From: Pseudomonas sp. MM211
GTDB taxonomy: Bacteria; Pseudomonadota; Gammaproteobacteria; Pseudomonadales; Pseudomonadaceae
NCBI RefSeq assembly: GCF_020386635.1
Contig: NZ_CP081942.1
Location: forward strand, 4,650,001-4,714,000
DNA: 64,000 bases
Direction of reading: 5' to 3'
This document shows, one piece after another, positions 9,376 to 39,901 of this stretch. A program made the translations under genes and the position numbers. The notes under the pieces were generated by a model, which worked only from the letters and a program-made list of their open reading frames with translations, was not told where the DNA came from and made no database searches. Numbering within the stretch: position 1 is the first letter of the stretch; each line of letters begins with the position of its first letter.

Positions 9376-9388
9376 AGCGGTTCACGCC

Positions 9389-10408: not shown

Positions 10409-10454
10409 CGCGCCCGAGCGGTCAGCCCTCTTCTGCCAACAGAGAAACCGATAC

Positions 10455-12008: not shown

Positions 12009-12019
12009 GGAGAATCGTC

Positions 12020-12670: not shown

Positions 12671-12702
12671 GCCACCAGGCCCGCCGCCAAGAGATCCGCG
12701 AC

Positions 12703-13929: not shown

Positions 13930-13942
13930 GAGGACTACGCGC

Positions 13943-17252: not shown

Positions 17253-18115
17253 TGCGAGAACCCGTCATGCCTTCGTACCACACCGCCCTGCTGCCACTGC
17301 TGCTCACCCTGACCCTGAGCGGCTGCGCCAGCCTCACGTCGCTCTCGCAACCGGCGCTAGACAAAGAGGCCGGCGAGGCCCTGCGCCTGGCTCACACCCT
17401 GCGCGACAACCAGCGTTTCCAGGCCGCCGACGAGGTGTATGCACGCATGGATGAACGCGGTCAGCTCAAGGGCAGCTATGTGCTCGAGTACGCCAGCGTT
17501 GCCGCCAACGTGCGCCCCGCCAAAGAAGCCCTGCCGCTGTACCTGCGCGCCCGTGACGAACTCGGCGGCGATGCCAGTGCCCTGCCGGCATCGCAAAGCG
17601 TAGCGCTCTGCTCTGGCCTGGGCCGCGCCCGCCTAGCCTTGGGCCAGGCTGCGCTGGCCGAAGGCGACTTCCGCTGCGCCACCGACGCGCAGCCGAATAA
17701 CCTGCAGGCGCTCAACGGCCTCGGCGTCGCCTACAACCTGCAAAAGCGCGACGAGGACGCCCGTCAGCAATTCGAAAAGGCGCTGGCCATCGACCCCGGC
17801 TACAGCCCCGCACTGAACAACCTGGCACTGTCCTGGCTGGCCAGCGGCGACAGCAGCCGCGCCATCGGCCTGCTCAATCAGGCCCGCGGCCAGGGCGACA
17901 TTTCCCTGCAACTCAACCTGGCGCTGGCCTATGTCTTCTCCGGACATGAAGACACCGCCAAGGCCGTGCTGCTGGAAAGCCTGGAAGCGGACTATGCCGG
18001 CACCATTCTCGAGCAGTTCCGTACCGCCCGTGCCCGGGTGAATGCGGGTGCGCCCCTGGCCAGTGAACTGCTGGCTGCCAGCCAGCAACCCCTGGCCCTG
18101 AGCGAGCAGAACTAA
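17249..18115 (+). CDS. tadD: TPR lipoprotein TadD
   Basis: Predicted lipoprotein (lipobox LSGCAS) with tetratricopeptide repeats, thought to act as the pilotin/assembly factor of the Tad secretin. TPR units are visible at about 150-185 (LNGLGVAYNLQKRDEDARQ) and 185-220 (LNNLALSWLASGDSSRAIG). 288 residues. Overlaps the tadC stop by 4 nt; a second ATG at 17252 or 17267 could be the true start. Confidence 0.88.
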   Translation: MMREPVMPSYHTALLPLLLTLTLSGCASLTSLSQPALDKEAGEALRLAHTLRDNQRFQAADEVYARMDERGQLKGSYVLEYASVAANVRPAKEALPLYLRARDELGGDASALPASQSVALCSGLGRARLALGQAALAEGDFRCATDAQPNNLQALNGLGVAYNLQKRDEDARQQFEKALAIDPGYSPALNNLALSWLASGDSSRAIGLLNQARGQGDISLQLNLALAYVFSGHEDTAKAVLLESLEADYAGTILEQFRTARARVNAGAPLASELLAASQQPLALSEQN

Positions 18116-20106: not shown

Positions 20107-20277
20107 TTGCGGTTGGGAATTATTCTTATCTTTCACACTCCGCGCCTGATCTCTTCCGGGCGTCCACTGAAAGGCAAGATTTCCGATGCATGCACTCCCC
20201 TTCGCCCCCCAGCTTCGCCATCCGGGAGTGTCATCGACTCATGCCGTGCAGCCAGGCAGCCACGACGGGCAACGGTC

Positions 20278-21882
20278 ATGATCAGCGCTCGCCGTCAGCG
20301 CGGCAGTATCGCGCCCTTCATGGTGCTGGCCCTCGGCGGCGCCCTGCTCGCCACCGCTTACGCGATCGATACCAGCCGCATGGTCAACAGCGCTTCGCAG
20401 GTCAAGCGCGCCACTGACCTGGCGGCCCTCGCGGTCGGCCAGGAGCGCCTGGCGAAGGGCGAAAAACCGCTGGAAGACTTCAAGAAGCTGGCCTACGGCT
20501 ACGTCATCAACAACCTCGGCCTGGACAGCACCCTCGCCGCCCAGATCGACGAAGAAACCCTTACCCTCAGCGAGCAAAAGGACGACCAAGGCCGCACCCG
20601 CTACAAGGTCGCGGTGACCTTGCAGGCCGATGCCGAAATGCTGGGCACCGAAACTCGAGACATCCACATTCACTCCACCGTCGAAGTACAGCCCAGCGCC
20701 CTCGAAGTGGCGCTGGCCCTGCCCAACACCCTTTCTGAGAATGCCGCCAATCTGGCCGTGCTGCGCCGCCTGGGTAAACACTTCGCCGAGAACCTGGTGA
20801 AGGGTCGCGATGACGCCTGGCTGGCATTGGTGCCCTACAGCCAATCGGTGAACGTCTCGCCCGACTACACCAACCCAGAGTCCCGTGCCCCCGCAGGCCC
20901 CAGCGCCAATCATGCGCAACGTTTGAACAGCTGGGCGATGGCCAGCGCTCTACGCCCGATCGAACTGACCTCGCTGTTCCGCACTGGCTACGCCGGCCTA
21001 CATGACCGCCGTATTCCGGATCGGCGCGCCAACCTGCTGTGCATGTACCGTGGCCTGAACCGGGGTGATAACTACTTCTGGGATGACGCCCCGAGCGGGC
21101 AATTCCACATCTACTACCGCCACGACCTGCCTGAGAACGGCAGTCCCGGCGCCACGCCGATCCGCTGGATCGGCCCCAACCCGATGTTCGGTCAAGCCAC
21201 CGGCATCAACGACACCCGCTGGATGGTTGCCGACAGTGGCTGCCCATCTGCCCCTCTGCTGCCACTGAGCAACGACATGGACAAGATCGAGGAACGCCTC
21301 GATCAGATGTCCACGCGCTTCAACGTCAACTACGCCATCGCCATGGGCTGGAGCGCCATGGCCCTGGCCCCGGCCTTTCGTGGCAGCAGTGGCTGGAACC
21401 TGCAGGACGAACTGCCCAAGGACTTCAAGGAAGATGGCGGCGACAGCTACAAGGCCATCGTCATGCTGGTCAACACCACCGGCCAACGCTGGTTCGACAG
21501 CGACAGCTACAACGCGGACACCGCTCAGGCCATCGATGGCGAGACCGGCACGGATGGCGAAAATCAGAGTTTACGAACACGACGCTTCGCCCGGCTGTGC
21601 GACAGCTTTCGCGAACGCAAGCTGCGCTTCTACCTGATAGCCATCGGCCAGGACGAGATAGAGAACAACGACCTGGGTGCCGAAGACAGCACGATCGACG
21701 GCGCTTCGGATTTCCGACGCCTTGCCGGGCCGGGCCTGGCCCGCTGCGCCGAACAGGCTGGCGACATCACCTACCTCAAGGGTTTCGACTTCGCCGCCGC
21801 CGAAGGCCAATTGCAAAGCCGGCTCGACGCAATTCTCGACGACATCCGCCGGCAGGGCTCCTACGTACGCCTGGTCGAGTAG
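20278..21882 (+). CDS. tadG: TadG-like pilus assembly protein
   Basis: Minor pseudopilin-like Tad protein of 534 residues with the TadG/Tad N-terminal segment: RQRGSIAPFMVLALGGALL, then YAIDTSRMVNSASQVKRATD. A long extracytoplasmic domain follows with two or more cysteines (LLCMYRG, DSGCPS, RLCDSFRE). The C-terminal region resembles the von Willebrand-like part of TadG proteins but I cannot see a complete MIDAS. ATG 20278 is chosen over the open frame from 20107 because the pseudopilin segment then lies at the N-terminus. It is split from the other tad genes and is the first gene of the giant-protein operon. Confidence 0.8.
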   Translation: MISARRQRGSIAPFMVLALGGALLATAYAIDTSRMVNSASQVKRATDLAALAVGQERLAKGEKPLEDFKKLAYGYVINNLGLDSTLAAQIDEETLTLSEQKDDQGRTRYKVAVTLQADAEMLGTETRDIHIHSTVEVQPSALEVALALPNTLSENAANLAVLRRLGKHFAENLVKGRDDAWLALVPYSQSVNVSPDYTNPESRAPAGPSANHAQRLNSWAMASALRPIELTSLFRTGYAGLHDRRIPDRRANLLCMYRGLNRGDNYFWDDAPSGQFHIYYRHDLPENGSPGATPIRWIGPNPMFGQATGINDTRWMVADSGCPSAPLLPLSNDMDKIEERLDQMSTRFNVNYAIAMGWSAMALAPAFRGSSGWNLQDELPKDFKEDGGDSYKAIVMLVNTTGQRWFDSDSYNADTAQAIDGETGTDGENQSLRTRRFARLCDSFRERKLRFYLIAIGQDEIENNDLGAEDSTIDGASDFRRLAGPGLARCAEQAGDITYLKGFDFAAAEGQLQSRLDAILDDIRRQGSYVRLVE

Positions 21883-21939: not shown

Positions 21940-24900
21940 ATGACCACACGCAAGCCCTCGCAACGCTATTTCCATGCCCTGGCCCTGGAGCCGCGCATCC
22001 TCCTCGATGCCGCAGCCGTCACCACTGCCGCGGAAGTAGCCGCTCAGGTCGATGCGCCGGCCACTGCCGATGCGCCGGGCGTGGAAGCAACGCCAATCCA
22101 GAGCACCATCACCATCACCGACAGCACCACCAGCTTCCCGCCGGTGGATCTGTTCAAGGACGTCAGTGTTTCCCTGGAGACAGGTGGCGGCTTCAATGAA
22201 CTGGCCGACCTGGTCATTACCATCGATCGTACCGGCAGCAACCAGGCGCTGGTGATCGATGGCAAGAGCATCGAACTGGTTGCCGGCAGTGGCACAACGC
22301 GGGCCAACGACACGGGCTACGTCTACAACGTGAGCGTTTCCGGCACGACCACAACCATTACCCTATCGCTTAACTCATTCGACCCCGAGCCACAGAACGT
22401 AAGCACCCTGATCGACACTATGTCCTACCAGGCGCTCGACAAATCCGTCGCCAGCGGCACCGTTGCTGTCACCCTGAAAAGCCTGAGCGATGACGGCGGC
22501 CAGACCACCGACCTGAGCGCGATCAAGACCACGGTCGAGATCGACAGCCGGGTCAATGTGCCGCCGGTGATTTCAGGCGACATTCTGAAAGAGGCAGAAG
22601 CCCTCAACGCCGGCGTGCTGGCTGGTTCCACCGAGGTGGCCTACTCGGCCGACGGCAAGTACGTCTACGCCGCTGGCTCGAACAGCAGCATCAGCGTGTT
22701 CGAGGTCAGCGGCACCGGCAGCCTGGTACTGAAGCAGACCCTGACAGGCATTCAGGATCTAGGTACGGTCAAGCACATGGTCGTGAGCGCTGACGACAAG
22801 TCGGTCTACACCGCATCCAACAGCGGCACACTCGTACTGTTCAACGTCAATGCCGATGGTACGTTGAGCCGTAACGCAAGCATTGCGGTTGGCGATACCG
22901 TGACCGGTAGCATCGCCATCTCCGACGATGGCAAGCAGCTGTTCGTTGGTAGCCAGTGGAACGGCCTGTATGTATTTAACCGCGATGTCGATACCGGTGC
23001 CCTGACACTGCTTAACCGCCCTGAAGGCCGTAACGGGGTGGTGACCACCTCCGGCGACTACGTCTACGTGACCTACGCAGGGGCTGGCATCGTGACGCCT
23101 CCCAGCCTGTCGGTTTACCAGCGCAGCGCCTCGGGCACCGGCGCGCTGACATTGGTCGACAGCATCAACATCAGTGCCGCTGGTACCGATTTGGTGGCCT
23201 CCGAAGACGGCCGTTACCTATACGTCGGTAACGGCAATGGCATCACTACCTACCACCTGGGTGCCGACAACAGGCTGACCCAGGCCAATGTCATCAGCAA
23301 TATCCCGGTTGGTAGCCTGTCGCTCAACACAGAGGGCAGCCGTCTCTACGCCGCAGCCACCAACGGTACCGTGCACATCTACAGCGTGGCGGACAATGGC
23401 AGCCTGACCAAACTGAGCACGGTAACCAGCACCTCCAATGGCCAGGAAATCACCGTCTCCGCCGATGGCCAATCGGTGCTGATTTCCGGCAACGGCCTGA
23501 GCCGTTTTTCCTCGATTCAGACGCTGATCCGGGGTGAGGAAATCGCCCTGGCCAACGGCCTGACACTGGGCGACGCCAACTTCGACAGACTGGCCAGCGG
23601 TTCCGGCGACTACAGCGGCGGCAAACTGCTGATCAGCCGTGAAGGCGGTGCCTCCAGCAACGACGTATTCGGCTTCGCCAACAGCAGCAGCCTGCGTCTG
23701 GAGAATGGCGACGTGCTCAAGGATGGCCAGGCCATCGCCACGTTCAGCCAGAGCGGCGGCAGCCTGACCATCACCTTCCTCGCGGGCACCAGCCGCGATG
23801 ACGCCAACGCCGTCCTGCGTCAGGTGACCTACAGCAACGATAGCTCGGCAGATGCCAACGGCAGCGTGGTGACACTGGCACTGCGCGCCAACGATGGCCA
23901 GGTGGACAGCCCGACCGTCAGCCTGGATGTACTGTTGACCAACAACACCGCACCGGAGCTCACGACCACCCCAGTCAGCAACGCCGGCTATGACACCACC
24001 GGCACGGTCACCGCCCTGTTCAAGGACACCACCATCAGCACGGGGGAAGTCGGCCAGTCGATCATCCAGCTCACTCTGAACATCGACGGGCTGAACAACG
24101 TCGCCAACGAATTCATCATCGTCGCTGGAACGCGTATCGACCTGTCGCAGTCCGGCAGTGGCAACGCTGGCGCTTACAGCTACACCTATACACGCACTGG
24201 CGACAGCGCCACGCTGGTAATCACCAGCAGTGGCATCAACGCGGCAACCGCGCAGACACTGGTTAACGGCATCGCCTACGTCAACGACACCACCCAGGCC
24301 ATCACCGGTATCCGCACGTTCACCCTGGCGAGCATTCAAGACAACGGCGGCAGCGGCGGTGGTGGCGACGACACTGGCGAGCCGGCCATCAGCGCCAGCA
24401 TCGCCCTGGCGATCAACAATGCGCCGCAATGGCAGAGCGACGTCAGCGACCCTGACCGCACCCTGTATTACGCCGACGGGACATTGAACGGCTACGCCGA
24501 TCGCGTCACCGACATCGTGTTGTCTGCAGACGGCAAGACATTGGTCATCAGCGGCAGTACAGGTGAGAACGCTGCCGGCACCAGCTACCTGCGAATCTAT
24601 TCGCGCGATACCGCAACCGGTGAGCTGACCCTGCTACAAACCTTCACCCAAGGCGCCAGCGACAACCCAGCCATCGAGGCCATCGAGGTCAACGGCCTCA
24701 ACGCGATCACCAGCATGGCCATGCACGGCAACAACCTTTACCTCGCCGGCAATACGGGCGATGCCGCTGTCTACTCCCTGGTGCGTTTCACCTACGACGC
24801 CAGCACGGGCCAATACAGCTATGCCGGCATTGCCGCCACCCAGGGTGTCAGCGCCGTAACCGGCCTGGATGCACAGATAGCCGAGATCGTGATCTCGGCG

Positions 24901-27900
24901 GATGGCAAATCGCTCTACACCATCAACGGTATTTCGACCATCGATGGCGCGACCGGCAAATCCTTACTGGCACAGTTTTCCATCGACTCGCAATCCGGCG
25001 CACTCACCTACCTTGGCGCCTATCAGGGCGGCTCAGCCGACCTGGGGATGAATGCGCCAAGCGGCATCGTCGTGTCCTCCGATGGCAAGTCGGTTTACGT
25101 GGCAAACCGCAGCAACAGCATGATCACGGTATTCATCCGCGACACTCAGACGGGCGTGCTGACCTACAGCGGTTTCATCAACAGAACCACGATTGCCGCC
25201 GATAGCGACAGTGGTGTCCAACCGAGCAACAACTACCTGGAAGAACTGCAAGACATCGTCATCTCCCCGGACGGCAAGTACGTCTATGTCGGCTCGGGAC
25301 AGCAAGCGACCCTTACGGTTTTCAGCCGTGATGCCGCAGACGGCAGCCTGACCTATGTCAGCACCCTGTCGCTCTATGCGCACGTGACCTCTCTGTCGAT
25401 CCGCGAGATAGCCATGTCGAGCGACGGCTCCGCCCTCTACGTCGGCTTCAACGGTGGGCCGCTGGCAGTGCTTAGCCGTGACAGCGTTACCGGGGCCGTG
25501 GCCTTCGTCAGTAGCCTCAATACAGGAGCACGCTCCAACCAGATTGCAGTCAGTGCTGATGGCCTGAACATCTATACCGGTCGTAGCCAGTTCACCAGCG
25601 GCGTGGTCATTCTCTCCGCCCTGCCCAACAGCACCTATGTGGCCAGCCGGCCCAGCACACCATTTAGCGATGGAATCAGTTTTTCCGACCCGGACTTCGA
25701 GGCGGCGAACAACTACCAAGGCGCCGAACTGACCATCAGCCGCAGCGGTACCGCATCGGCGAACGATCTGTTCGGTTTCCAGAAAGGCGCAGTCCTGGAG
25801 CTGGTCGACAACCAGATCATGCAAGGCTCCACGGCAATTGCCGAATTCGTCTCGGTAAACGGCACACTGACCATCCGTTTTATCGCCGATGTCGACAAGG
25901 CCACCGCCAACCAGGTGCTACAACAGGTCACCTACCACAACGACAGTGCCGAGCCACCTGCGCGAGTCGAGCTAAAACTGACCGTGGGCGACGGTGGCAA
26001 ATCCGCCGATATGACACTGGCATTGCTGCGTGCTACAGCCACTCCAGACCCCACGCTCGCAGCCAACGGCCAACAGGCTTCGCTTACCATTGGCACAGGC
26101 CCTCTTCCAGGCCCGGTCGATCTGTTCCAACAGGTAACGGTTTCCCTCGATGACGGTGGCGAGCCACTGACCGACCTGGTGATCACCGTCGATCGCAGCG
26201 GCGCCGACCAGGCCCTGGTCATCGATGGCGAGGAAATCACCCTGCAAGGTGGCAGCGGCCAGACCAGCGCCAACGGCTACCAGTACGTGGTCGAGGTCAA
26301 CAATGGCGTGACCAGTATCCGCGTCAGCATCGATTCCTCGAGCAACGCCGCCACCCCGGAAGCCACCGCCACCCTGATCGATGGCATCGCCTACAAGGTG
26401 CTGGCCGATACTGCCGCTACCGGCACAGTCACCATCACCCTGGCCAGCCTGAGTGATTCGAGCGACCAGATCGAACCGGGCATCAGCGCCAGCGTTATCG
26501 TGCGTGACCAGCGTCAGTTGCCCACCCTGGGCGCGGAAACCGGATCGCTCGACTACGCAGATCTGCTCACTCAGCTCGATGCGAATGGCAACAACCAGTT
26601 GCAGGGTATTCAGGGCATCACGGTTATCGGCGACAAGGTCTACGTCGTGCGTTCGGCAACCAACTATGTGTATGACGAAGAAACCGCGACCGGCTCGGAC
26701 GTCTTCTACAACACGATTTCCGTCTACCAGCTTGGCGCGGATGGCTCGCTGCAACTGCTCGAGAGCAAGGAAGCCAATGGGCTGACCGGTGCCGCGACGC
26801 TGCATGCCTCGAAAGACGGAAGCACTCTTTACCTGATCGGTGCCGATGGCGTGGCATTGTTCAACGCGGCCGATCTGCAGCAACTCGGCACGTTCGGGAA
26901 TGACCTCGGCCTGGTGAGCGCTGTCGTGGCCCAAGGCGACACTGTCTATGTGACGGCCAATGACAAGCTGCTGGTGTTCAGCCGCAGCGGCGCCACCCTG
27001 ACGCTGGAGCAGACGCTCGAAGATGCCGGCGCTACAGGCATACAACTCGATGGTGCCAACGCCATCAGCCTGTCGCCCGATGGCAAGACTTTGTACGTCG
27101 CCACCTCTGGTGGCGACACGCTGGTCAGCGCTTTCAGCATCGCAGCCGATGGCTCGCTAACGTTCAAGCAAGCGGTCGCCGGTTCCAACGCTGCCGAGTT
27201 CGGTTACTACGCCTCTGAACTCAATCTGTCAGCCGATGGCAAGACACTGTATGTCATCGACGGTAACTCGCTGCTGCACGTGCTCAACGTCGCAGCAGAC
27301 GGCAACCTGAGCGCTGTAGCCACTTTTGAACTGGGAGAAAGCGGCAGTATCACCGCCAAGGGTGTCATTGTTTCTCCAGACGGCAAGAGCGTGGCGGTGA
27401 TCGGTGCCCTGGGTACGAGTGGTCGCTACAACACCTACGGCATTTTCCTATACAGCCGCGCAGAAGATGGCTCTCTCACTCTCGCTCAGAAAGTTGAAGG
27501 CTTCGGCGACTATGCCAACTTCGCGGGCACCACCTTTAACGAAGTGCGCCATGCAGCGTTCAGCGCCGATGGCAAGCAGCTCTACCTCACCGGTGTATTT
27601 CAAGGCTCAGGCTGGAATGAAGGCTTACTGGTCATCGACCTGAAACCAGCCGCCGTGACCTTTACCGAGCATGGCGAACCTGTCGCCCTGCTCCCCGGTG
27701 GCACGCTGGCCGACCCACAACTGGATGCAGCGGACGACTATCAAGGCTCCAGCCTGGTGATCGAACGCAGCGGCGGCGCCGGGGACGGCGATGCCTTCAG
27801 CTTCCTGAACGATAACGGCCTGGAGCTGAAGGACGACGGCAAGATCTGGAAAGGCGCAACCGCAATTGCCGAGTTCGTGATCGGCGCCAATGGCAAGCTG

Positions 27901-30135
27901 ACCATCGCCTTCCTCGCCGGTGTCAGCCAGGCGGATGCGCAGCACGTGCTACGCCAGGTGGCCTATACGTCCAGCAGCAACCACCCGACCCGCAACGGCG
28001 GCACTGCCAGTTTCAACCTGGTGTTCAACGACGGCGACGGCAACAGCGCCAGCCTGGACGCCAACGTTGGCTTGGTAGACATCAACGATGCAGCCGTCGT
28101 GGACACCACACCGCTGAACCCAACCTTCACCACAGGTGGCGATCCGGTCGGGCTGTTCAAGGACACCCAGATCGATACCATCGAATCCGGCCAGAAGATC
28201 CATCGTGTAGAAATCACCGTCAGCGGCGTTACCGCAGGTGATGTGATAAATGTGGCGGGCAGCCAGATCGTTCTCAACTCGACTGTCGACTGGCAGGCAT
28301 ATGCCGGCGAAGGCGAGGATCGCATCGAGTACCGCGTCAGAGTCAGCAATGGTGTGGCCACGGTAACCCTCTATATGGGCCGCGAGGCAGGCCCTGCACG
28401 TGATGGCGCTGAGACGGCACAGATCATCAACAGTCTGACCTACAGCCACACCGGTAGCGAAAGCAGTGGCACCCGTACCGTGAGCCTGGGACTTGTCGAG
28501 GATGACTACAGCACCCGTAGCACCTTTACCGAGCAGACCACCGTCACCCTGGAAGGCGCACGCCCAGTCTCCAACACGCCACTTCCTGAACTCAGCGCAA
28601 CAGGCACGCAGACCCAGCTGGAAATCCGCAACAGCGGTCTGCCCGAGGCCGTCGACCTGTTCAGCGACGTCATCATACGGTCTGGCAATGACAACCAGCC
28701 GCTGACCGCGCTCTATATCACGGTCAATCGCAGCAGCGCCGATCAGGCACTGGTCATAGACGGCCATGAGATCAAGCTGCAAGCCACCGACATGGCCCAG
28801 ACCGGTGCCAATGGCTACGCCTATTCCGTGACGATCAACGCCGACGGCAGCGCCACCATCAAGATCAACCTCGACTCCAGCAACGCCAATGCACCTGCCG
28901 ACGTCGAGCGCCTGGTCGACGGCATGAGCTACAAGGTACTGGCCAATACGGTCGCCGATGGCAACGTGGTCGTCACCCTGACCGGTATCAGCGACTACGA
29001 CGATGCCAGCCTGAACATCAGCGCAAGCGTTAGCGTCAGCCATTCAGCCGAAAATAATCAGCCTCCAATCGATAGCGGAATCTCCCTGAACCTTGGCAAC
29101 CCGACGTTCGGTACAGCCTACAGCTACGCCCTTCCGGCCAATCTGTTCATCGATGCTGACGGCGATAACCTGACCTGGAGCGTCATCGGTCTGCCCGCAG
29201 GCCTGCAGTTCGACGCAGTGACACGAACTATCCAGGGCATGCCGACCGAAGCCGGTACCTTTGCGCTCACCCTGAAAGCCAGTGATGGCAATCTCGAAGC
29301 CAGCCGTCAGGTCACCATGTCGGTGACCGAGGCCAGTACCACGCCGGAAAATCCCGGTAACCCGGGCACGCCGGAACTCCCCGCTAACGGCGACCCTGTA
29401 CTGCCAACACTATTCACCATTAGCCCTCGTGAGAGCGTGCTCACCAGTACGCAGGATCTTTCCGCCAGCAACGAAAACTTCCAGATCGACAACACCGATT
29501 TCGCCCCGCAGCAAGAGGCAGCACCTGCAACATCGCGTCCGGTTGTTCTCACTCTGCTGCATGACGGTAGAACGGGTTTCAGCAATCCAGGCAGCCTTGC
29601 CGAGCAACTGGCCAACGCCGACACGGTGCTCACCGATACGGGCCGCCAGCACAGCGCAGGCAGTTTCAGCGTCGAGGGTTCGCGCCTGAGCGCAAGCGTC
29701 GATCTGAGCACAGGCGATGCCCGCAGCATCACCCTCGAACTGCCAAGCCAATTGCCCGATGGCAGCGCACCGCAGCGGGTCACCCTGGCCAACGGCCTGC
29801 CGTTGCCGAGCTGGGCATCGTTCGATGCGCGCAGCGGTGAGCTGCGCATCGATCGTGAGCGCCTACAGCGCGATGGGGTGCTGCGCCTGACCCTGATCAG
29901 CCGCGATGGCGAGGGCCGCGAACAGCGTACGCCAATGGAAATTCGTGCCGAGGGCGCATCACCGCTAAAGGCCGTTGAAGCGCTGCAGCAATCCGCTCCC
30001 GTAGCAGAGTCGCTGCCGGAGCGCATGCGCCAGGACACCTCCAGCGCCTTGCTCAGCGACGCGCTCGAGCTGCTCGACCAATTGAGCGACCTGGCTGGGG
30101 AGCCGGTCGCTGTCACCACACGCCACATCGCCTGA
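21940..30135 (+). CDS. Giant repetitive beta-propeller surface/secreted protein with N-terminal LEPR-x-LL motif
   Basis: 2731 residues. No classical signal peptide; residues 16-24 read LEPRILLDA, a motif known at the start of very large exported proteins. Three kinds of module recur. Domain A (VDLF...DQALVIDG..., about 130-150 residues) lies at about 50-200, 1371-1527 and 2221-2367, with diverged copies near 685-825 and 2054-2202. Lactonase-like propellers with repeated SADGKxxYV blades are at about 224-540, 827-1235 and 1529-1901. Module C (GDYSGGKLLISR-like) follows each propeller. A dystroglycan/He-PIG-like Ig domain lies at 2376-2466, then a Pro-rich linker and a unique 210-residue C-terminus. 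No RTX nonapeptides, LPxTG or PEP-CTERM sorting signal was seen. It is 57 nt after tadG and 23 nt before the TolC-like gene. Role (adhesion or matrix) is inference. Confidence 0.85.
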   Translation: MTTRKPSQRYFHALALEPRILLDAAAVTTAAEVAAQVDAPATADAPGVEATPIQSTITITDSTTSFPPVDLFKDVSVSLETGGGFNELADLVITIDRTGSNQALVIDGKSIELVAGSGTTRANDTGYVYNVSVSGTTTTITLSLNSFDPEPQNVSTLIDTMSYQALDKSVASGTVAVTLKSLSDDGGQTTDLSAIKTTVEIDSRVNVPPVISGDILKEAEALNAGVLAGSTEVAYSADGKYVYAAGSNSSISVFEVSGTGSLVLKQTLTGIQDLGTVKHMVVSADDKSVYTASNSGTLVLFNVNADGTLSRNASIAVGDTVTGSIAISDDGKQLFVGSQWNGLYVFNRDVDTGALTLLNRPEGRNGVVTTSGDYVYVTYAGAGIVTPPSLSVYQRSASGTGALTLVDSINISAAGTDLVASEDGRYLYVGNGNGITTYHLGADNRLTQANVISNIPVGSLSLNTEGSRLYAAATNGTVHIYSVADNGSLTKLSTVTSTSNGQEITVSADGQSVLISGNGLSRFSSIQTLIRGEEIALANGLTLGDANFDRLASGSGDYSGGKLLISREGGASSNDVFGFANSSSLRLENGDVLKDGQAIATFSQSGGSLTITFLAGTSRDDANAVLRQVTYSNDSSADANGSVVTLALRANDGQVDSPTVSLDVLLTNNTAPELTTTPVSNAGYDTTGTVTALFKDTTISTGEVGQSIIQLTLNIDGLNNVANEFIIVAGTRIDLSQSGSGNAGAYSYTYTRTGDSATLVITSSGINAATAQTLVNGIAYVNDTTQAITGIRTFTLASIQDNGGSGGGGDDTGEPAISASIALAINNAPQWQSDVSDPDRTLYYADGTLNGYADRVTDIVLSADGKTLVISGSTGENAAGTSYLRIYSRDTATGELTLLQTFTQGASDNPAIEAIEVNGLNAITSMAMHGNNLYLAGNTGDAAVYSLVRFTYDASTGQYSYAGIAATQGVSAVTGLDAQIAEIVISADGKSLYTINGISTIDGATGKSLLAQFSIDSQSGALTYLGAYQGGSADLGMNAPSGIVVSSDGKSVYVANRSNSMITVFIRDTQTGVLTYSGFINRTTIAADSDSGVQPSNNYLEELQDIVISPDGKYVYVGSGQQATLTVFSRDAADGSLTYVSTLSLYAHVTSLSIREIAMSSDGSALYVGFNGGPLAVLSRDSVTGAVAFVSSLNTGARSNQIAVSADGLNIYTGRSQFTSGVVILSALPNSTYVASRPSTPFSDGISFSDPDFEAANNYQGAELTISRSGTASANDLFGFQKGAVLELVDNQIMQGSTAIAEFVSVNGTLTIRFIADVDKATANQVLQQVTYHNDSAEPPARVELKLTVGDGGKSADMTLALLRATATPDPTLAANGQQASLTIGTGPLPGPVDLFQQVTVSLDDGGEPLTDLVITVDRSGADQALVIDGEEITLQGGSGQTSANGYQYVVEVNNGVTSIRVSIDSSSNAATPEATATLIDGIAYKVLADTAATGTVTITLASLSDSSDQIEPGISASVIVRDQRQLPTLGAETGSLDYADLLTQLDANGNNQLQGIQGITVIGDKVYVVRSATNYVYDEETATGSDVFYNTISVYQLGADGSLQLLESKEANGLTGAATLHASKDGSTLYLIGADGVALFNAADLQQLGTFGNDLGLVSAVVAQGDTVYVTANDKLLVFSRSGATLTLEQTLEDAGATGIQLDGANAISLSPDGKTLYVATSGGDTLVSAFSIAADGSLTFKQAVAGSNAAEFGYYASELNLSADGKTLYVIDGNSLLHVLNVAADGNLSAVATFELGESGSITAKGVIVSPDGKSVAVIGALGTSGRYNTYGIFLYSRAEDGSLTLAQKVEGFGDYANFAGTTFNEVRHAAFSADGKQLYLTGVFQGSGWNEGLLVIDLKPAAVTFTEHGEPVALLPGGTLADPQLDAADDYQGSSLVIERSGGAGDGDAFSFLNDNGLELKDDGKIWKGATAIAEFVIGANGKLTIAFLAGVSQADAQHVLRQVAYTSSSNHPTRNGGTASFNLVFNDGDGNSASLDANVGLVDINDAAVVDTTPLNPTFTTGGDPVGLFKDTQIDTIESGQKIHRVEITVSGVTAGDVINVAGSQIVLNSTVDWQAYAGEGEDRIEYRVRVSNGVATVTLYMGREAGPARDGAETAQIINSLTYSHTGSESSGTRTVSLGLVEDDYSTRSTFTEQTTVTLEGARPVSNTPLPELSATGTQTQLEIRNSGLPEAVDLFSDVIIRSGNDNQPLTALYITVNRSSADQALVIDGHEIKLQATDMAQTGANGYAYSVTINADGSATIKINLDSSNANAPADVERLVDGMSYKVLANTVADGNVVVTLTGISDYDDASLNISASVSVSHSAENNQPPIDSGISLNLGNPTFGTAYSYALPANLFIDADGDNLTWSVIGLPAGLQFDAVTRTIQGMPTEAGTFALTLKASDGNLEASRQVTMSVTEASTTPENPGNPGTPELPANGDPVLPTLFTISPRESVLTSTQDLSASNENFQIDNTDFAPQQEAAPATSRPVVLTLLHDGRTGFSNPGSLAEQLANADTVLTDTGRQHSAGSFSVEGSRLSASVDLSTGDARSITLELPSQLPDGSAPQRVTLANGLPLPSWASFDARSGELRIDRERLQRDGVLRLTLISRDGEGREQRTPMEIRAEGASPLKAVEALQQSAPVAESLPERMRQDTSSALLSDALELLDQLSDLAGEPVAVTTRHIA

Positions 30136-30158
30136 ACACTGCCAAGGATCATCGATCA

Positions 30159-31865
30159 ATGAACCGCAAAACCTTCGACCGTTCCACCCTGCGTCTGGCC
30201 ATTGTCTGTGCCGCGCTGGGCCTGAGTGCCTGCGCCGTCACCCCGCAAGTGCTGACACCCGAGCAGCAACTGGCCGACGCCCAGAAAGACCGCAGCGCCA
30301 TGTTTGACAATCAGGAGCCGGTGACGCGCGCCATCAGCCTGGACGAAGCCATGGCCCGCGCCGTGAAGTACAACCTGCAACAGCGCCTGGGCCTGATGCA
30401 GCGCGCCCTGGAAGACAACAGCCTGAGCGTCGCCAACCTCGGCCTGCTGCCCCAACTGGCAGCCAGCGCAGGCTGGAAGGGGCGCGATAATATCGCCGGG
30501 TCATCCAGCGAATCGGTCACCACCGGGCGGCAATCCCTGGAACCATCGACCAGCAGCGACCGCTCCAGCCGCGACGCCAACCTGCGCCTGTCGTGGAACA
30601 TGCTCGACTTCGGCGTCAGCTACTTCAGCGCCAAGGCCCAGGCCAACAAGGTGCTGGCCGCTGAAGAGGCGCGCCGCAAGGTGGTCGCCGATATCGTTCA
30701 GCAGGTACGTGACGCCTATTGGCAGGCCGCCAGCGCCGAGCGCCTGCAGCCGGAAGTGCAACGCGCGCTGAGTGACGCCCGCGGCGCCCTGGAGCAGGCC
30801 CGGCAGACCGAACGCCAGCGCCTGGTCGCGCCACTGGAATCGCTGCGCTACCAGAAAAGCCTGCTGGAAATGATCCGCCAACTGGAAGTGGTGGAAGGTG
30901 AACTGGCGGTGTCCAAGGCGCGCCTGGCCAGCCTGATGAACCTGCCGCCGGCGACGGCTTTCAGCCTGGTACTGCCAGACGACTCCAGCTACGCCCAACC
31001 GGCCCTGGCCTACAACCTGGCGGATCTTGAAGTGACCGCCATGACCGAGCGCCCGGAGATCCGCAGCGAGAGCTATCAGGCACGCAATGCCGTGCTGGAA
31101 ACCCGTGCTGCGATGCTCAAGTTGCTGCCGGGAGCCAACCTGTTCGTCGGCGCCAACTACGACAGCAACAGTTATCTGGTCAACGACAACTGGGCCGACG
31201 CCGGCATGCAGGTGAGCTGGAACCTATTCAATGTATTGGCTTACCCGGCCATCAAGAAAACCGGCGAAACCCGCCTGCAGGTTGCCGAGCTGCGCCGCCA
31301 GGCCATGCGCATGGCGGTGCTCACCCAGGTCAACGTGGCCTGGCGCGAATATGAGCGTTCGAGCCAGGTGTTCGCCCGCTCCAGCGAACTGCAACAGGTG
31401 CAACGCGGCATCCTGCGCCAGAGCGAGAACTCCTTCTCCAGCCAGGCGCAGAGCCGTCTGGAGCGCGTGCGCACGGCCACCGAAACGGTACTGGCGACCC
31501 GTACCCGTGACCGTGCCTTCGCCGAACTGCAGGTCGCTCACGGCGCTGTTTACCAGGCCGCCGGCCTCGATCCGCTGCCCGAACGCATCGCTGGCAGCAG
31601 CGTCGATGAGCTGACCCGCGCCATCGCAGGCAACTCCATGCGCCTCAACCAGGGCCAGGGCGCCGTGCCGGCCGGCATCGCCGCCGCGCAGCAGGTTCCT
31701 TACGGCACCTCCACGCCGTTGGTGACGGCTGCGGCACCGAGCGCGCCACTGGTCGCCCAGCGTGCACAGCCACCCGCCAAGACCCTGCGCCTGGATATGT
31801 GGGAAAGCCTCGGCTCGTTGCGGGGCGCCGAGCTGGTTCCGGTGGAGCAGGCCAATGCCCGCTGA
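30159..31865 (+). CDS. TolC/OprM-family outer-membrane channel lipoprotein
   Basis: Outer-membrane efflux-type channel of 568 residues. The lipobox GLSAC (Cys25) makes it an OprM-like lipoprotein. Two long alpha-hairpin repeats are recognisable: SLDEAMARAVKYNLQQRLG... in the first half and the ...LNVAWREYERS-type second half (about 380-470). The C-terminal 100 residues are an Ala/Pro/Gln-rich extension not usual for the family. It begins 23 nt after the giant gene and overlaps the next gene by 11 nt. In this cassette it is the probable exit channel. Confidence 0.87.
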   Translation: MNRKTFDRSTLRLAIVCAALGLSACAVTPQVLTPEQQLADAQKDRSAMFDNQEPVTRAISLDEAMARAVKYNLQQRLGLMQRALEDNSLSVANLGLLPQLAASAGWKGRDNIAGSSSESVTTGRQSLEPSTSSDRSSRDANLRLSWNMLDFGVSYFSAKAQANKVLAAEEARRKVVADIVQQVRDAYWQAASAERLQPEVQRALSDARGALEQARQTERQRLVAPLESLRYQKSLLEMIRQLEVVEGELAVSKARLASLMNLPPATAFSLVLPDDSSYAQPALAYNLADLEVTAMTERPEIRSESYQARNAVLETRAAMLKLLPGANLFVGANYDSNSYLVNDNWADAGMQVSWNLFNVLAYPAIKKTGETRLQVAELRRQAMRMAVLTQVNVAWREYERSSQVFARSSELQQVQRGILRQSENSFSSQAQSRLERVRTATETVLATRTRDRAFAELQVAHGAVYQAAGLDPLPERIAGSSVDELTRAIAGNSMRLNQGQGAVPAGIAAAQQVPYGTSTPLVTAAAPSAPLVAQRAQPPAKTLRLDMWESLGSLRGAELVPVEQANAR

Positions 31866-32625
31866 CCAGCCGCTTGCAACGGAGCGTTTCTGGCCCGGCG
31901 TGCTGGCGATCCTGATCGCCACGGCAGCCAACCTCGCCCATGCCGATGAGGCGAGCAACGAGCTGCGTGTGCAGCTCAGCCCGATCCGCCAGACGGTGCT
32001 GTCCAGCGAGCTCAGCGGCAAGCTCACCGAGTTGGCCGTCAAGGAAGGCGATCGCTTCAAGGAAGGTCAGCGCCTGGCCGCCTTCGATTGTTCGGTGCAG
32101 CGCGCCCAGCTCAACCGCAGTGAAGCGGTGCAGCGCGGAGCGCAGAAGAAGCTCGACGTTGCCAAGCGCCTCGATGCCCTGGAATCCATCAGCCAGGCCG
32201 AGGTCGCCCAGGCCCAGGCCGACATGGCCGTGGCCCAGGCGGAAAGCGGCGTGGGCCGCGCCATGCTGAAACGCTGCAACCTGGATGCGCCCTTTGCCGG
32301 GCGCGTCTCGCAGCGCATGGCGCAGCGCTTCCAGCACGTCGCCGAAGGCACCGAGTTACTGGCGATCTATGACGACAGTGCCTACCAACTGGAGCTGATC
32401 GCCCCCTCGGCCTGGATGTCCTGGCTCAAGCCCGGCGTCGAGTTCGAAGTGCAGCTGGACGAAACCGGCCAGCGCTATCCCGCTCAGATCGAACGCCTCG
32501 GCGCGGCCATCGACCCACTCAGCCAATCGCTCAAGGTGTTCGCGCGCATCACCGGCGACAGCGCTGGGCTGCTTCCGGGAATGAGCGGTGTCGCGCTGCT
32601 GCAACCGCCGGCAGACGGTTCATGA
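31855..32625 (+). CDS. Short HlyD/RND-type periplasmic adaptor
   Basis: Membrane-fusion protein of 256 residues with a signal peptide ending AHA. The biotinyl-lipoyl-like half motif (LSGKLTELAVKEGDRFKEGQRLAAFD) is visible across about 44-75, then a short coiled hairpin (75-140) and the second lipoyl half (LDAPFAGRVSQRM). It is shorter than usual adaptors (about 350). The start at 31855 overlaps the TolC-like gene, and the stop overlaps the next start in ATGA. It most likely docks on the TolC-like protein. Confidence 0.82.
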   Translation: MPADQPLATERFWPGVLAILIATAANLAHADEASNELRVQLSPIRQTVLSSELSGKLTELAVKEGDRFKEGQRLAAFDCSVQRAQLNRSEAVQRGAQKKLDVAKRLDALESISQAEVAQAQADMAVAQAESGVGRAMLKRCNLDAPFAGRVSQRMAQRFQHVAEGTELLAIYDDSAYQLELIAPSAWMSWLKPGVEFEVQLDETGQRYPAQIERLGAAIDPLSQSLKVFARITGDSAGLLPGMSGVALLQPPADGS

Positions 32626-33977
32626 ACGCCAGTGTCACCACCCTGCCCGACAAACGCGCCGAGCGTATGGCGCTGTTGCTGCAAATCGAGCGTCGCGCCC
32701 GCGCCCAGAGCGACGTAGCCGGCCTAGGCTTCCTGATGGTCAACGATACGCGCCAGTTACTCGACTACCAGGAGGCCTTTCTGTGGGATGCCGACAAAGC
32801 GCGTATCAGTGCCTGCTCCGGGCTCGCCCAGGTAGAGGCCAATGCCCCCCTGATGCTGTTTCTCGGCCGCCTTTGTGCGGGCTGGGATAGCCAGCCCTGG
32901 GCAGCCGAGTTGCGTGACCTAAGCGCCACCGATGCCCCCGCCGCTCTGCAGGCCGAATGGTCGGAGTACCTGGCGCCCAGCCTGTTGCGCCTGCCCCTGA
33001 AAGACCGCGACGGCCAGTTGCTCGGCAGCCTGCTGCTGAGCCGCGAACCCGCGCTGGCACGTCCGGAACGGGCGCTGCTGGAACTGCTGCAGGACGCCTG
33101 CGGGCATGCCTGGGCCAGCCTCATGCGCGGCAAGAAACGCACGCTGCTCAGCCAACTGCGCAAGCGACCACGGCGGATCGCGCTGGTCGCTTGCGCGCTG
33201 GCGCTGGTGATCGCCCTGCTACCAGTGCATCAGACGGTACTGGCACCCGCCGAAATCATGCCGCGCAACCCGGCGGTGCTGCGTGCGCCGCTGCAAGCGG
33301 TGGTCGAGCGCATTCTGGTGCAACCCAATCAGGTGGTGAAAAGCGGAGAAGCGCTGGTGCAGCTGGACAAGCGCGAGCTGGAAAGCCGCCTGGAATCGTC
33401 CCGGCAAACCTTCGCGGCTGCCGACGCCCAGTTGCGCCAGACTCGCCAGCAGGCACTGTTCGACGAACGTGCCAAGGCCGCCCTGGCCGAACTGATCACC
33501 CGTCGCGACCAGGCCCGCGCCGAACTGGCCTTCATTGAAGAGAACCTGCAGCGCAGCCTGATCCTCGCTCCCCGTGACGGCGTGGCGATCTTCGACGATC
33601 CCAGCGACTGGATCGGCCGGCCAGTCACCCTTGGCGAGCGCATCATGCAGGTCGCCGATCCCCACGACGCGCGCCTGGAAATCCAGCTACCGGTGGCAGA
33701 TGCCATCGCCCTGGAGCCGGGTGCCGAGGTGCTGCTGTTTCTCAACAGCCAACCGGGCAGCCCCCTCCCCGCTAGCCTCGAGCGCTATGGCTATCGTGCC
33801 TCACCGAGTGCGGACGGCGGCATGGCTTACCGCCTGCAAGCGGGTTTCAGCGAGGCCGACCCGCGCCTGCGCGTCGGCCTCAAGGGCACGGCCAAACTGT
33901 ATGGCGAACGTACCCTGCTGATTCACTACCTGCTGCGCCGTCCCCTTGCCGCGCTGCGCGTCCACCTGGGCTGGTAG
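32622..33977 (+). CDS. GAF-like domain fused to HlyD-type adaptor
   Basis: 451 residues with an unusual order. Residues 1-170 are cytoplasmic and resemble a GAF-type ligand domain (MVNDTRQLLDYQEAFLW..., LPLKDRDGQLLGSLLLSRE). A membrane helix follows at about 186-203 (IALVACALALVIALLPV). Then comes a HlyD adaptor with LRAPLQAVVERILVQPNQVVKSGEAL (about 222-247), a coiled hairpin and a second lipoyl half (LAPRDGVAIFDD). A cytoplasmic sensor joined to a periplasmic adaptor suggests gating of export by an internal signal; that is inference. It overlaps the previous gene by 4 nt and abuts the next one with no gap. Confidence 0.8.
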   Translation: MNASVTTLPDKRAERMALLLQIERRARAQSDVAGLGFLMVNDTRQLLDYQEAFLWDADKARISACSGLAQVEANAPLMLFLGRLCAGWDSQPWAAELRDLSATDAPAALQAEWSEYLAPSLLRLPLKDRDGQLLGSLLLSREPALARPERALLELLQDACGHAWASLMRGKKRTLLSQLRKRPRRIALVACALALVIALLPVHQTVLAPAEIMPRNPAVLRAPLQAVVERILVQPNQVVKSGEALVQLDKRELESRLESSRQTFAAADAQLRQTRQQALFDERAKAALAELITRRDQARAELAFIEENLQRSLILAPRDGVAIFDDPSDWIGRPVTLGERIMQVADPHDARLEIQLPVADAIALEPGAEVLLFLNSQPGSPLPASLERYGYRASPSADGGMAYRLQAGFSEADPRLRVGLKGTAKLYGERTLLIHYLLRRPLAALRVHLGW

Positions 33978-36128
33978 ATGAACGCACCACTCGCTCTGCC
34001 CACCCCGAATCGGGCACCACGCCTGCCCGATCTGCGCCGTACCCTGCGCCTACATCCGGGCCCTCGCTCGCGAGACGGCGCGCCAAGCTGGACACTCGAA
34101 GACGCTGCCCGCGGGCGTTTCTACCGGATCGGCTGGGCCGAAGCAGAAATCCTCGCCCGCTGGCAGATGGGCAGTGCCCAGGCAATCGCCGAAGCGGTCA
34201 GCAGGGAAACTACCCTGGCCCTGAGCAGTGAGGACGTTGACGCTTTCAGCCAGTTTCTGCGCAGCATGCAACTGGTCGAAGTCAGCGGGGACGCCGCCCT
34301 GGACGATCTGCGCAAACGCGGCGAAGCGGGCAAGAGCAGTAGCTGGAGCGCCTGGTTGCTAAGCAACTACCTGTCGATCCGCATTCCGCTGCTTCGTCCG
34401 GATCGGTTCCTGTCGCGTAGCTATCGCTATGTTGCCCCGTTGTTCAGCCGCAGCTTCGCACTCGCCACGCTCACGGCAGCGCTGCTTGGTCTGTATCTGG
34501 CGGCGCGCCAGTGGGACAGTTTCATACACACCTTCCTGCATTTCTTCAGCATTGAAGGCGCGCTGCTAGCAGCCGTAACACTGAGCCTGACCAAGGTGCT
34601 CCACGAGTTCGGGCATGCCTACACTTGCAAGCGTTATGGCTGCCGAGTGCCGACCATGGGCGTGGCCTTCCTGGTCATGTGGCCGGTGCTCTACACCGAC
34701 GCCAGCGGCGCCTGGCGGCTCACCTCACGACGCCAACGGATGGCCATCGGCGCTGCCGGCATGGGCGTGGAGCTATGCCTGGCCGCTTGGGCGACACTGG
34801 CCTGGAGCTTTCTACCGGATGGCATGCTGCGCAGCGCGGCATTCATGCTGGCCAGCACCACCTGGATACTCACCCTCGCGGTGAATCTCAATCCGCTGAT
34901 GCGCTTCGACGGCTACTTCCTGTTCTCCGACCTGCTCGACGTACCCAACCTGCAGGAGCGCGCCTTCGCCCTCGCCCGCTGGCGCATGCGCGAAACCCTG
35001 TTCGGCTTCGGCGATGCGCCTCCCGAACACTTCGCACCGGCGCTGCGGCGCGTGCTGCTGGGCTACGCATTCGCCACCTGGGTGTACCGCTTCTTCCTGT
35101 TTCTCGGCATCGCCCTGCTGGTCTATCACTTCGCCTTCAAGCTGCTCGGCGTGCTGCTGTTCATCGTCGAGATCGTGCATTTCATTCTCCGCCCGATCAT
35201 CGGCGAGCTGCGCCACTGGCACCAACGCCGCAAGGACTACCGCATGAACCGCAACACCCTGATCTGCGCCAGCGTGTTGCTGGTCGCACTGTTTCTGCTG
35301 GCCTGGCCGTGGCGCAACCGGATCGAGGCGCCAGCCCTGTTACGCGCGCAGCAACAGGCGATTCTGCTCACACCGGCGGGCGCCAGGCTGGAACGTATAG
35401 AGGTGCAGCCGGGCGAACCCGTACGTGCCGGGCAAACGCTGTTCCGCCTGCACTCGGCGCAGCTACAGCACGACCTGCAAGGCCTCGAGCGAGAAATCGA
35501 GCAACTGCGCCAGCAAAGCAGCCTGCAGGTTCGCGCCAGTGAAGGATCCGCCCGCCAGTCGATTGCCCGGGAAGAATTACAGGTGGCGCTCGAGCGGCGC
35601 CTTGCCCTGCAGGAGCGAATGGCGCAGCTGCAGGTCAAGGCACCATTCGATGGTGTGCTGGTCGATAGCGCCGCTCCGCTGGCCGAAGGCGAATGGCTGC
35701 CGGCCGGCGAATGGCTGGGCACGGTCGCCAATACAGGCAGCGAACGGGTCGAAGCCTTCGTCGGCGAGGCGGATCGCGAGCGCCTGCAGGTCGGCGCTCA
35801 GGCCTGGTTCCTGCCGGAAGACCCGGGTCGCCCGCGCCGCCTGCTGCAGGTCGAGGACATTGGCCAGACCGCAGTACGCCAGCTTACCTCTGCCCCCGAA
35901 CTGGCATCGGTCTATAAGGGAACACTGGCGGCGCAACTCGATGAGCAGCGTGTACCGATTCCCGAACAGGCGCTGTATCGTGTGCAACTGCGCCCCCTGG
36001 ACAGCCACAGCGAAGCGATGCCGATCACCCTGCGTGGCAATGCCTCAATCAGTGGTGATGCCCGCAGCCCGCTGATGCAAGCGTGGCGTCGCGTGCTGAC
36101 TATTCTGATACGCGAATCGGCGTTTTGA
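33978..36128 (+). CDS. Site-2-protease (M50) fused to HlyD-type adaptor
   Basis: Polytopic inner-membrane protein of 716 residues. Residues 1-110 look like a PqqD/winged-helix domain. The M50 core has the zinc motif HEFGH (His209-His213) and the third-ligand motif NPLMRFDGYF (Asp311), so the protease looks active. About eight helices lie between 150 and 450. After a further helix (about 428-445) comes a HlyD adaptor with GARLERIEVQPGEPVRAG and a coiled hairpin (about 490-540). Such M50-HlyD fusions occur in peptide-export clusters; the substrate here is unproved. Last gene of the operon that starts at tadG. No ABC transporter is encoded nearby. Confidence 0.82.
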   Translation: MNAPLALPTPNRAPRLPDLRRTLRLHPGPRSRDGAPSWTLEDAARGRFYRIGWAEAEILARWQMGSAQAIAEAVSRETTLALSSEDVDAFSQFLRSMQLVEVSGDAALDDLRKRGEAGKSSSWSAWLLSNYLSIRIPLLRPDRFLSRSYRYVAPLFSRSFALATLTAALLGLYLAARQWDSFIHTFLHFFSIEGALLAAVTLSLTKVLHEFGHAYTCKRYGCRVPTMGVAFLVMWPVLYTDASGAWRLTSRRQRMAIGAAGMGVELCLAAWATLAWSFLPDGMLRSAAFMLASTTWILTLAVNLNPLMRFDGYFLFSDLLDVPNLQERAFALARWRMRETLFGFGDAPPEHFAPALRRVLLGYAFATWVYRFFLFLGIALLVYHFAFKLLGVLLFIVEIVHFILRPIIGELRHWHQRRKDYRMNRNTLICASVLLVALFLLAWPWRNRIEAPALLRAQQQAILLTPAGARLERIEVQPGEPVRAGQTLFRLHSAQLQHDLQGLEREIEQLRQQSSLQVRASEGSARQSIAREELQVALERRLALQERMAQLQVKAPFDGVLVDSAAPLAEGEWLPAGEWLGTVANTGSERVEAFVGEADRERLQVGAQAWFLPEDPGRPRRLLQVEDIGQTAVRQLTSAPELASVYKGTLAAQLDEQRVPIPEQALYRVQLRPLDSHSEAMPITLRGNASISGDARSPLMQAWRRVLTILIRESAF

Positions 36129-39430: not shown

Positions 39431-39507
<77 letters not shown>

Positions 39508-39514
39508 GATACTC

Positions 39515-39550
39515 AAAAAGGCCACTCAATCGAGTGGCCTTTTTGTTTTT
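39515..39550 (+). terminator. Terminator after tRNA copy 1
   Basis: AAAAAGGCCACTC / GAGTGGCCTTTTT hairpin with a T-run, 7 nt after the tRNA. It is repeated after copy 2. Confidence 0.85.
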
Positions 39551-39593
39551 CCGCTCTGTCGATTTAACTTATTGATTGAAAAGCATAAATCGA

Positions 39594-39621
39594 TTGACAG
39601 AAGTCCGCTTTTGTATAGAAT
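39594..39621 (+). promoter_or_regulatory. Promoter of second initiator tRNA
   Basis: TTGACA (39594-39599), 16-bp spacer, TAGAAT (39616-39621), 6 bp before tRNA copy 2. Confidence 0.8.
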
Positions 39622-39627
39622 TGCCGG

Positions 39628-39704
<77 letters not shown>

Positions 39705-39711
39705 GATACTC

Positions 39712-39747
39712 AAAAAGGCCACTCAATCGAGTGGCCTTTTTGTTTTT
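39712..39747 (+). terminator. Terminator after tRNA copy 2
   Basis: Same hairpin and T-run as after copy 1. Confidence 0.85.
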
Positions 39748-39790
39748 CTGCTCTGCCGATTTAACTTATTGATTGAAAAGCACAAATCGA

Positions 39791-39818
39791 TTGACAGAAG
39801 TCCGCTTTTGTATAGAAT
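39791..39818 (+). promoter_or_regulatory. Promoter of third initiator tRNA
   Basis: TTGACA (39791-39796), 16-bp spacer, TAGAAT (39813-39818). Same as the promoter of copy 2. Confidence 0.8.
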
Positions 39819-39824
39819 TGCCGG

Positions 39825-39901
<77 letters not shown>

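Follow-up and report, generated by a model that had tools for sequence, protein, structure and literature searches.

In the genome of Pseudomonas sp. MM211, a cassette of five genes encodes a giant protein of the LEPR type together with four proteins which, on balance, we take to form a dedicated machine for its secretion, independent of an ATP-binding cassette (ABC) transporter. The largest known proteins include giant surface proteins, for many of which we know of no recognised exporter. The window analysed here is the whole stretch of 64,000 nucleotides at positions 4650001-4714000 of the complete 5.28-Mb genome. The cassette lies at positions 21940-36128 of this window, with all genes on the forward strand, and its coordinates are given as positions within the window. 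A reading made from the sequence alone, referred to below as the sequence-only reading, had proposed such an ABC-less route for the giant protein. In this study, we show that the leader motif of the giants and the membrane protease of the cassette occur together across genomes and that the loci of relatives are devoid of an exporter-type ABC gene in the DNA examined, both of which support the proposal.

Results

The cassette and its products

The giant gene (21940..30135) starts with an ATG at 21940, preceded by GGAAG, and encodes 2731 residues with lactonase-type beta-propeller repeats (Lactonase E 5.2e-42). Residues 15-33 of this presumed substrate match the LEPR-8K model NF012209 with 19.5 bits and thus pass the cut-off of 17. 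Downstream follow the genes of a TolC/OprM-like outer membrane lipoprotein of 568 residues (30159..31865; OEP E 1.6e-22) with an LSAC lipobox recognised by eye, and of a short, periplasmic HlyD-type adaptor of 256 residues with a signal-peptide-like start (31855..32625). The fourth gene (32622..33977) encodes 451 residues with a GAF-like domain, one predicted membrane helix (residues 186-204) and a HlyD adaptor (GAF-HlyD). The fifth (33978..36128) encodes 716 residues with a putative PqqD-like N-terminal domain, an M50 membrane metalloprotease (HEFGH at residues 209-213, D311) and again a HlyD adaptor (M50-HlyD), so that the HlyD domain is present in three proteins of the window beside the TolC-family channel. 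The OEP and HlyD genes overlap by 11 bases and the HlyD and GAF-HlyD genes by 4 bases; the gap between GAF-HlyD and M50-HlyD is 0. Genes, coordinates and spacing are as the sequence-only reading had given them, and its descriptions of the giant, the lipoprotein and the protease fusion likewise proved correct.

No ABC gene is found among the five cassette genes. A search of the whole genome with ABC_membrane (PF00664), made by profile and not gene by gene in the window, yielded 10 matches (nine over cut-off), of which none lies within 4650001-4714000. The genome holds one M50-HlyD and one LEPR-8K match. The M50-HlyD protein is 97% identical to a multispecies Pseudomonas protein and 84% identical to a protein of Phytopseudomonas dryadis.

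Leader motif and M50-HlyD occur together across genomes

Co-occurrence was analysed in a sample of 349 Pseudomonadota genomes, using a profile of the PqqD and M50 part of M50-HlyD (A2, E<=1e-20) and a profile of the leader (A3, motif LExRxxFDGA). A2 matches were obtained in 91/349 genomes and A3 matches in 77/349 at E<=0.01. At E<=0.005, the M50 part is present in 72 of 73 leader-positive genomes (Fisher p 1.7e-55); at E<=0.01 it is present in 72 of 77 (Fisher p 3.4e-50), and both figures are reported since the stricter threshold was set after the list had been seen. The five leader-positive genomes without M50 comprise four with leader matches at E 0.006-0.009 and one bin that is 57% complete (G330). 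Ten single-contig genomes are positive for both profiles, and 13 of their 14 motif sites are no more than 20 kb away from the M50 gene. A second motif site of G163 (contig 1, position 963267) falls in a frame of 213 codons at a distance of 1.07 Mb from M50-HlyD, with no cassette genes in the 20 kb examined around it. Among the 19 genomes positive for M50 and negative for the motif, LEPR-8K matches 13 (E<=0.05, each above cut-off), the open frames concerned measuring 144 to 12,812 codons.

When the family was scanned with the M50-HlyD protein, 99 of 148 genomes gave a match, in some cases through the HlyD part alone. LEPR-8K matched 8 of the same 148 genomes, and all 8 have long M50-HlyD matches.

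Leaders and tails of the giants

The sequence-only reading had seen no classical signal peptide in the giant, and indeed its first 78 residues contain no hydrophobic one (maximum Kyte-Doolittle mean 1.16 over a 19-residue span). The N-terminal signal region, LALEPRILLDAAA (21961..22050; row 1 of alignment A3), is basic before the leader motif and acidic after it. Among the relatives, giants were chosen by length and composition without use of the motif. The pattern LExRxx[FLMVIY][DSN][AGS] occurs within the first 160 residues of the frame in 29 of the 31 giants whose N-terminal side is visible, and the two motif-less giants are split genes with the motif on the front piece. As a control, the pattern matched 9/1588 other frames, 8 of which were giants or giant pieces on inspection. 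The residues before the motif carry a mean charge of +4.4 (positive in 26/30) and the 40 residues after it a mean charge of -5.4 (negative in 30/30). A hydrophobic core is present in none of the leaders of the 35 giants listed (maximum mean over 17 residues 0.40-1.48).

The giants also share features at the other end. In a single-linkage comparison of the last 260 residues, 42 of 50 tails fall into one group, to which shared repeats may add. The pattern [GASP][KRQ]x(0-2)[LFV]xxQ[LMVFI] is found in the last 60 residues of 32/48 giants versus 37/1589 other frames and 8/1601 internal giant windows, and its core [LFV]xxQ[LMVFI] in 44/48, 202/1589 and 135/1601, respectively; these counts are partly circular, because the motif model was built from 18 giants of the very set counted. 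Fifteen other frames score at least 8 bits with the model, 12 of them resembling, by eye, the ends of truncated giants. The tail of the window giant has no match to the model; its residues ESLPERMRQ..ALELLDQL (30007..30132) resemble, to the eye, a diverged version of the motif. For searches of whole genomes the motif proved too short and was rejected as a probe, since it matched 48/349 genomes at E<=0.05, in many cases in frames that are unrelated.

No RTX family is among the Pfam matches of the window giant and four relatives. Giants of relatives pass adhesin models, namely BapA/LapF (202 bits, cut-off 180) and VCBS in locus L036 and Ca_tandemer in the Phytobacter locus L115, where the giant beside the cassette also carries DUF4347. 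A T1SS-143 repeat in L036 is weak (17 bits, cut-off 66). In locus L047, the gene directly after the end of the giant gene (3932-5521) begins, by eye, with a Hint/intein-like sequence (CFIKGTRVHTKDGLKPIEEI).

Domains of M50-HlyD and GAF-HlyD

In the M50 part, H209, E210 and H213 belong to HExxH, and D311 is the third metal ligand. HExxH and the aspartate are invariant in 59/59 aligned M50-HlyD proteins and present by pattern in 114/114 (84/88 with a stricter pattern). Pfam M50 reaches E 1e-5 in the window protein (25.5 bits, slightly below the cut-off of 27.2), and all 59 aligned proteins match at E<=0.01. The nearest model is that of the daptide protease (NF041824, 169.5 bits, below the cut-off of 300); nearest in the PDB are the site-2 protease MJ0392 S2P (E 1.3e-4) and RseP (E 0.0045). 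At the end of M50-HlyD proteins an IRES[AG]F-like tail is conserved (window 36108-36125; E713 invariant in 59/59), possibly a docking or contact element.

The N-terminal domain appears PqqD-like by profile. When excised from M50-HlyD proteins of a sister branch described below, it matches Pfam PqqD in 15/15 cases at E<=0.1 (best 6.2e-10), and the profiles of the window-branch and sister-branch domains align over 79 columns (hhalign, probability 87%, E 3.8e-6). A search of the domain against the PDB gave four chance matches only (E 0.87 or worse). PqqD-type domains bind the leader peptides of ribosomal peptides, which makes M50-HlyD a good candidate for both leader reader and leader peptidase.

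Of the GAF-like/HlyD fusion called by the sequence-only reading, the HlyD half stands. The GAF half has no Pfam GAF match in the window protein and is suggested by relatives: GAF matches 5/46 aligned GAF-HlyD proteins (best 2.4e-6) and is strong in the sister-branch loci L047 and L048 (best 2.2e-14).

Neighbourhoods of M50-HlyD in relatives

Searching GTDB contigs with the M50-HlyD alignment, we confirmed at least 551 relatives and kept the best 80. They come from several phyla and include Pseudomonas, Pantoea, Marinomonas, Chromobacterium, Komagataeibacter, Nitrospira, Magnetococcales, Geobacteraceae and one Pelagibacteraceae genome. Together with 20 further loci, 100 loci of 3 to 23 kb each were searched with profiles in six frames. 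The other exporter genes recur on the same strand at the loci with enough upstream sequence: GAF-HlyD in 91/93, HlyD in 71/83 and OEP in 56/74.

The sequence-only reading would have been overturned by an ABC transporter in the operons of relatives, and this search was carried out. No exporter-type ABC gene was found in the examined DNA of the 100 loci, some of which cover only 3 kb. Some ABC-type frame is present at 13/100 loci, the best with 144 bits. By the same search, eight real exporter-type ABC proteins score 278-518 bits when each is left out of the profile, and an overlooked nearby ABC gene is therefore ruled out within the examined DNA. At two loci the distance between an ABC-type frame and M50-HlyD is at most 0.4 kb (L071, 78 bits; L099, antisense, 106 bits).

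Another conserved gene was considered as motor of the window branch and rejected. Clustering of neighbouring frames, which were chosen by length so that true genes may be missed, gave eight groups of 6 to 16 of the 100 loci each, none of them constant. By eye these are antisense frames, ABC ATPases, pieces of giants or repeats, a LysR-type regulator and one group without identity in 14 loci. At three Pseudomonadaceae loci (L035, L037, L038), M50-HlyD is followed by two extra genes of approximately 266 and 330 residues; judged by eye from its motif, the first resembles an aspartyl/asparaginyl beta-hydroxylase, which perhaps modifies the giant.

SecA-like ATPase genes in a sister branch

In a tree of 114 M50-HlyD proteins, 15 that are closer to the sister-branch protein form a clade (support 1.0). 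M50-HlyD is followed by a SecA-like gene on the same strand at 15/15 loci of this branch (with a gap of 0.9 kb in one). GAF-HlyD is present at 14/15 and an additional HlyD frame after the SecA-like gene at 9/15. No SecA-like gene is near M50-HlyD at 98 window-branch loci, as judged from the loci only; L175, one of 14 loci fetched for the SecA test, belongs to the window branch and has no SecA-like gene.

The alignment of the SecA-like L048 protein with SecA chain 3jv2 spans residues 18-596 of the latter (E 3.8e-127). The frames end 80-84 residues past motif VI in 13/15 cases and 70 residues past it in one; in one, motif VI was not found by pattern. With strict patterns, 14 of the 15 frames show Walker A, 11 the full motif VI and 10 the DEAD region. 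SecA_SW (wing and scaffold domain), the portion that normally engages SecY, matches none of eight SecA-like proteins scanned and is not among the precomputed domains of the best 120 homologues of the L163 protein. The short ATPases of L047, L048, L163-L174 and L176 (approximately 660-700 residues, without SecA_SW match) are labelled plain SecA by their sources. Homologues of the L163 protein at E<=1e-100 number at least 7912 among 8000 scored candidates, of which the best 120 were inspected and some are perhaps ordinary SecA.

By coordinate arithmetic, the LEPR frames of G424, G300, G166 and G308 lie upstream of M50-HlyD on its strand and stop about 2-3 kb short of it. At the LEPR-8K loci of such genomes the leader is LExRxLLS[AG]D (8/9 readable loci; 6 of 15 tried were unread), which differs from LExRxxFDGA.

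Surroundings of the cassette

Directly upstream of the giant lies a Tad/Flp pilus cluster (RcpC, secretin, CpaD, T2SSE ATPase, T2SSF, TPR) at 9317-18115 and 20107-21882, and 57 bases separate the end of the Tad-domain (TadG-like) gene from the giant start. By eye, a TadG-like gene precedes the giant in G124 (L031) too. Three tandem tRNA-Met genes with a spacing of 197 bases are located at 39431-39901.

Discussion

We slightly favour the reading that the four exporter genes act as a dedicated machine that secretes the giant independently of an ABC transporter. More tentatively, we propose that they represent an undescribed class of one-step Gram-negative secretion, in which PqqD-M50-HlyD takes the place of the ABC transporter, reads the LExR leader on giants and hands them over to a TolC-like channel, one branch being driven by a SecA derivative without the SecY-engaging part. 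Starting from the gene set, its domains, the conserved active site, the motif, the co-occurrence and the ABC-less loci, the following course may be envisaged. The leader of the giant would consist of the basic stretch, the LExRxx(F/L)D(G/A) motif and the acidic stretch. The PqqD-like domain of M50-HlyD would bind it at the cytoplasmic face and the M50 site would cut it within or at the membrane. A mixed periplasmic tube, assembled from the HlyD portions of M50-HlyD and GAF-HlyD together with the short HlyD protein, would end in the TolC-like lipoprotein, and through this tube the giant would be threaded to the cell surface. The likely motor of the sister branch is its SecA-derived ATPase, which is devoid of the wing/two-helix-finger part; in the window branch, energy would have to come from the proton gradient, from housekeeping SecA or from folding outside the cell.

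Several points weigh against this reading. No motor gene is seen at the window-branch loci, and we know of no M50 protease that serves as a protein conduit. The co-occurrence is not fully independent, because sequences of the window and of a few sampled genomes went into profiles A2 and A3; the check for the HlyD half covered fewer than all 91 M50-positive genomes. Six of these 91 have neither leader form. At the relatives' loci HlyD was not found in 12/83, OEP in 18/74 and GAF-HlyD in 2/93. Three full-length sister-branch M50-HlyD proteins score 16.2-22.7 bits with PqqD, under the cut-off of 23.4, and the N-terminus of window-branch M50-HlyD has no direct PqqD match by sequence search. Finally, the nine over-cut-off ABC_membrane proteins of the own genome include an LssB (LapB-type) transporter (965 bits), an LssB fragment and PrtD, all far from the cassette, so that a type I ABC acting in trans is possible for this strain. 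At least one LssB match at E<=1e-100 is present in 33 of 37 cassette genomes; these 37, each at least 96% complete, were taken from the 72 genomes with both leader and M50 part.

Second in rank, and unlikely, is a two-step route, in which SecA/SecYEG takes the giant to the periplasm by way of its odd leader, M50-HlyD removes the leader, and adaptors and TolC-like protein serve the outer-membrane step only. The SecA-like gene at every sister-branch locus and the leader, basic before the motif and acidic behind it, would fit such a route. However, the leaders are devoid of a hydrophobic core, and the eight SecA-like proteins scanned show no match to the very part that normally engages SecY.

Less probable again is that the cassette cleaves, releases or anchors the giant at the surface after export by another route. 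The protease domain is central to the cassette, the GAF-like domain suggests regulation, and the leader could serve as a retention tag; yet a TolC-like channel and three adaptors would be needless for a protease alone, and the loci revealed no further export gene that recurs.

A partnership of the cassette with a type I ABC transporter whose gene lies at another site seems to us quite improbable. In its favour, the window genome has LssB and PrtD type genes, and LssB is over cut-off in 21/37 and PrtD in 16/37 cassette genomes. However, exporter-type ABC genes are found at 0/100 loci in the DNA examined, and four genomes rated 99-100% complete (G015, G031, G353, G207) show no LssB or PrtD match at E<=1e-100. 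Their HlyB scores are at best 347-373 bits, far under the cut-off of 726 and near those of two MsbA-type proteins of the window genome (346 and 354 bits). All four nevertheless have open frames for the giant with its leader motif, OEP, HlyD, GAF-HlyD and M50-HlyD on one strand within 20 kb; in G015 an antisense ABC-type frame (90 bits) lies beside the set at the edge of the stretch.

A role of the cassette in the efflux of small molecules or peptides, for which the similarity of the M50 part to daptide/epipeptide proteases could speak, is barely credible, as an accidental link with giants is made very unlikely by the co-occurrence (72/73 genomes), and giants adjoin the cassette in loci from several phyla.

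The proposed secretion machine shares features with known systems. As in type I secretion (HlyB/HlyD/TolC, LapB/C/E), there are a TolC-like outer membrane protein, HlyD adaptors and very large repetitive substrates, and from the inner membrane outward the cassette probably works like a type I conduit. It differs in having no ABC transporter in the cassette, for which reason we do not class it as type I secretion, in the M50 membrane part fused to HlyD and in the conserved N-terminal leader of the substrate. No RTX family is matched by the window giant and four relatives in Pfam, although giants of relatives pass adhesin models, and the giants share a C-terminal motif of their own. By hydropathy, the giants show no cleavable hydrophobic signal peptide of the kind that Sec-dependent export would call for. 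The sister-branch ATPases resemble the SecA translocase but end 70-84 residues past motif VI (14/15 measurable), show no SecA_SW match and are encoded in the exporter operon. Daptide and epipeptide (YydH) pathways combine M50 proteases with leader-type substrates and include an ABC exporter. NF041824 covers the cassette M50 domain and part of the N-terminal region, whereas the cassette protease is fused to HlyD, its substrate measures thousands of residues and an ABC exporter is absent. The LEPR-XLL (LEPR-8K) and DUF4347 families, which take in the window giant and the Phytobacter giant, respectively, cover the substrate alone, and the listings examined attach no transport system to them.

The LEPR-8K, DUF4347, M50 and HlyD families are each already known, separately. 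In line with the sequence-only reading, which knew of no described example, we found no published description of the gene set in the open-licence PMC literature, as judged by titles and abstract openings; coverage of subscription journals and preprints is limited, so an earlier description is possible. In the matched passage of PMC8277102, "M50" is a residue number.

If the proposal is true, it would provide the sorting signal, the processing protease and the export channel for a large class of giant proteins, given the M50 part in 91/349 Pseudomonadota genomes. It would further mean that a TolC/HlyD conduit can dispense with an ABC motor and that such a conduit has gained an adapted SecA as its partner.

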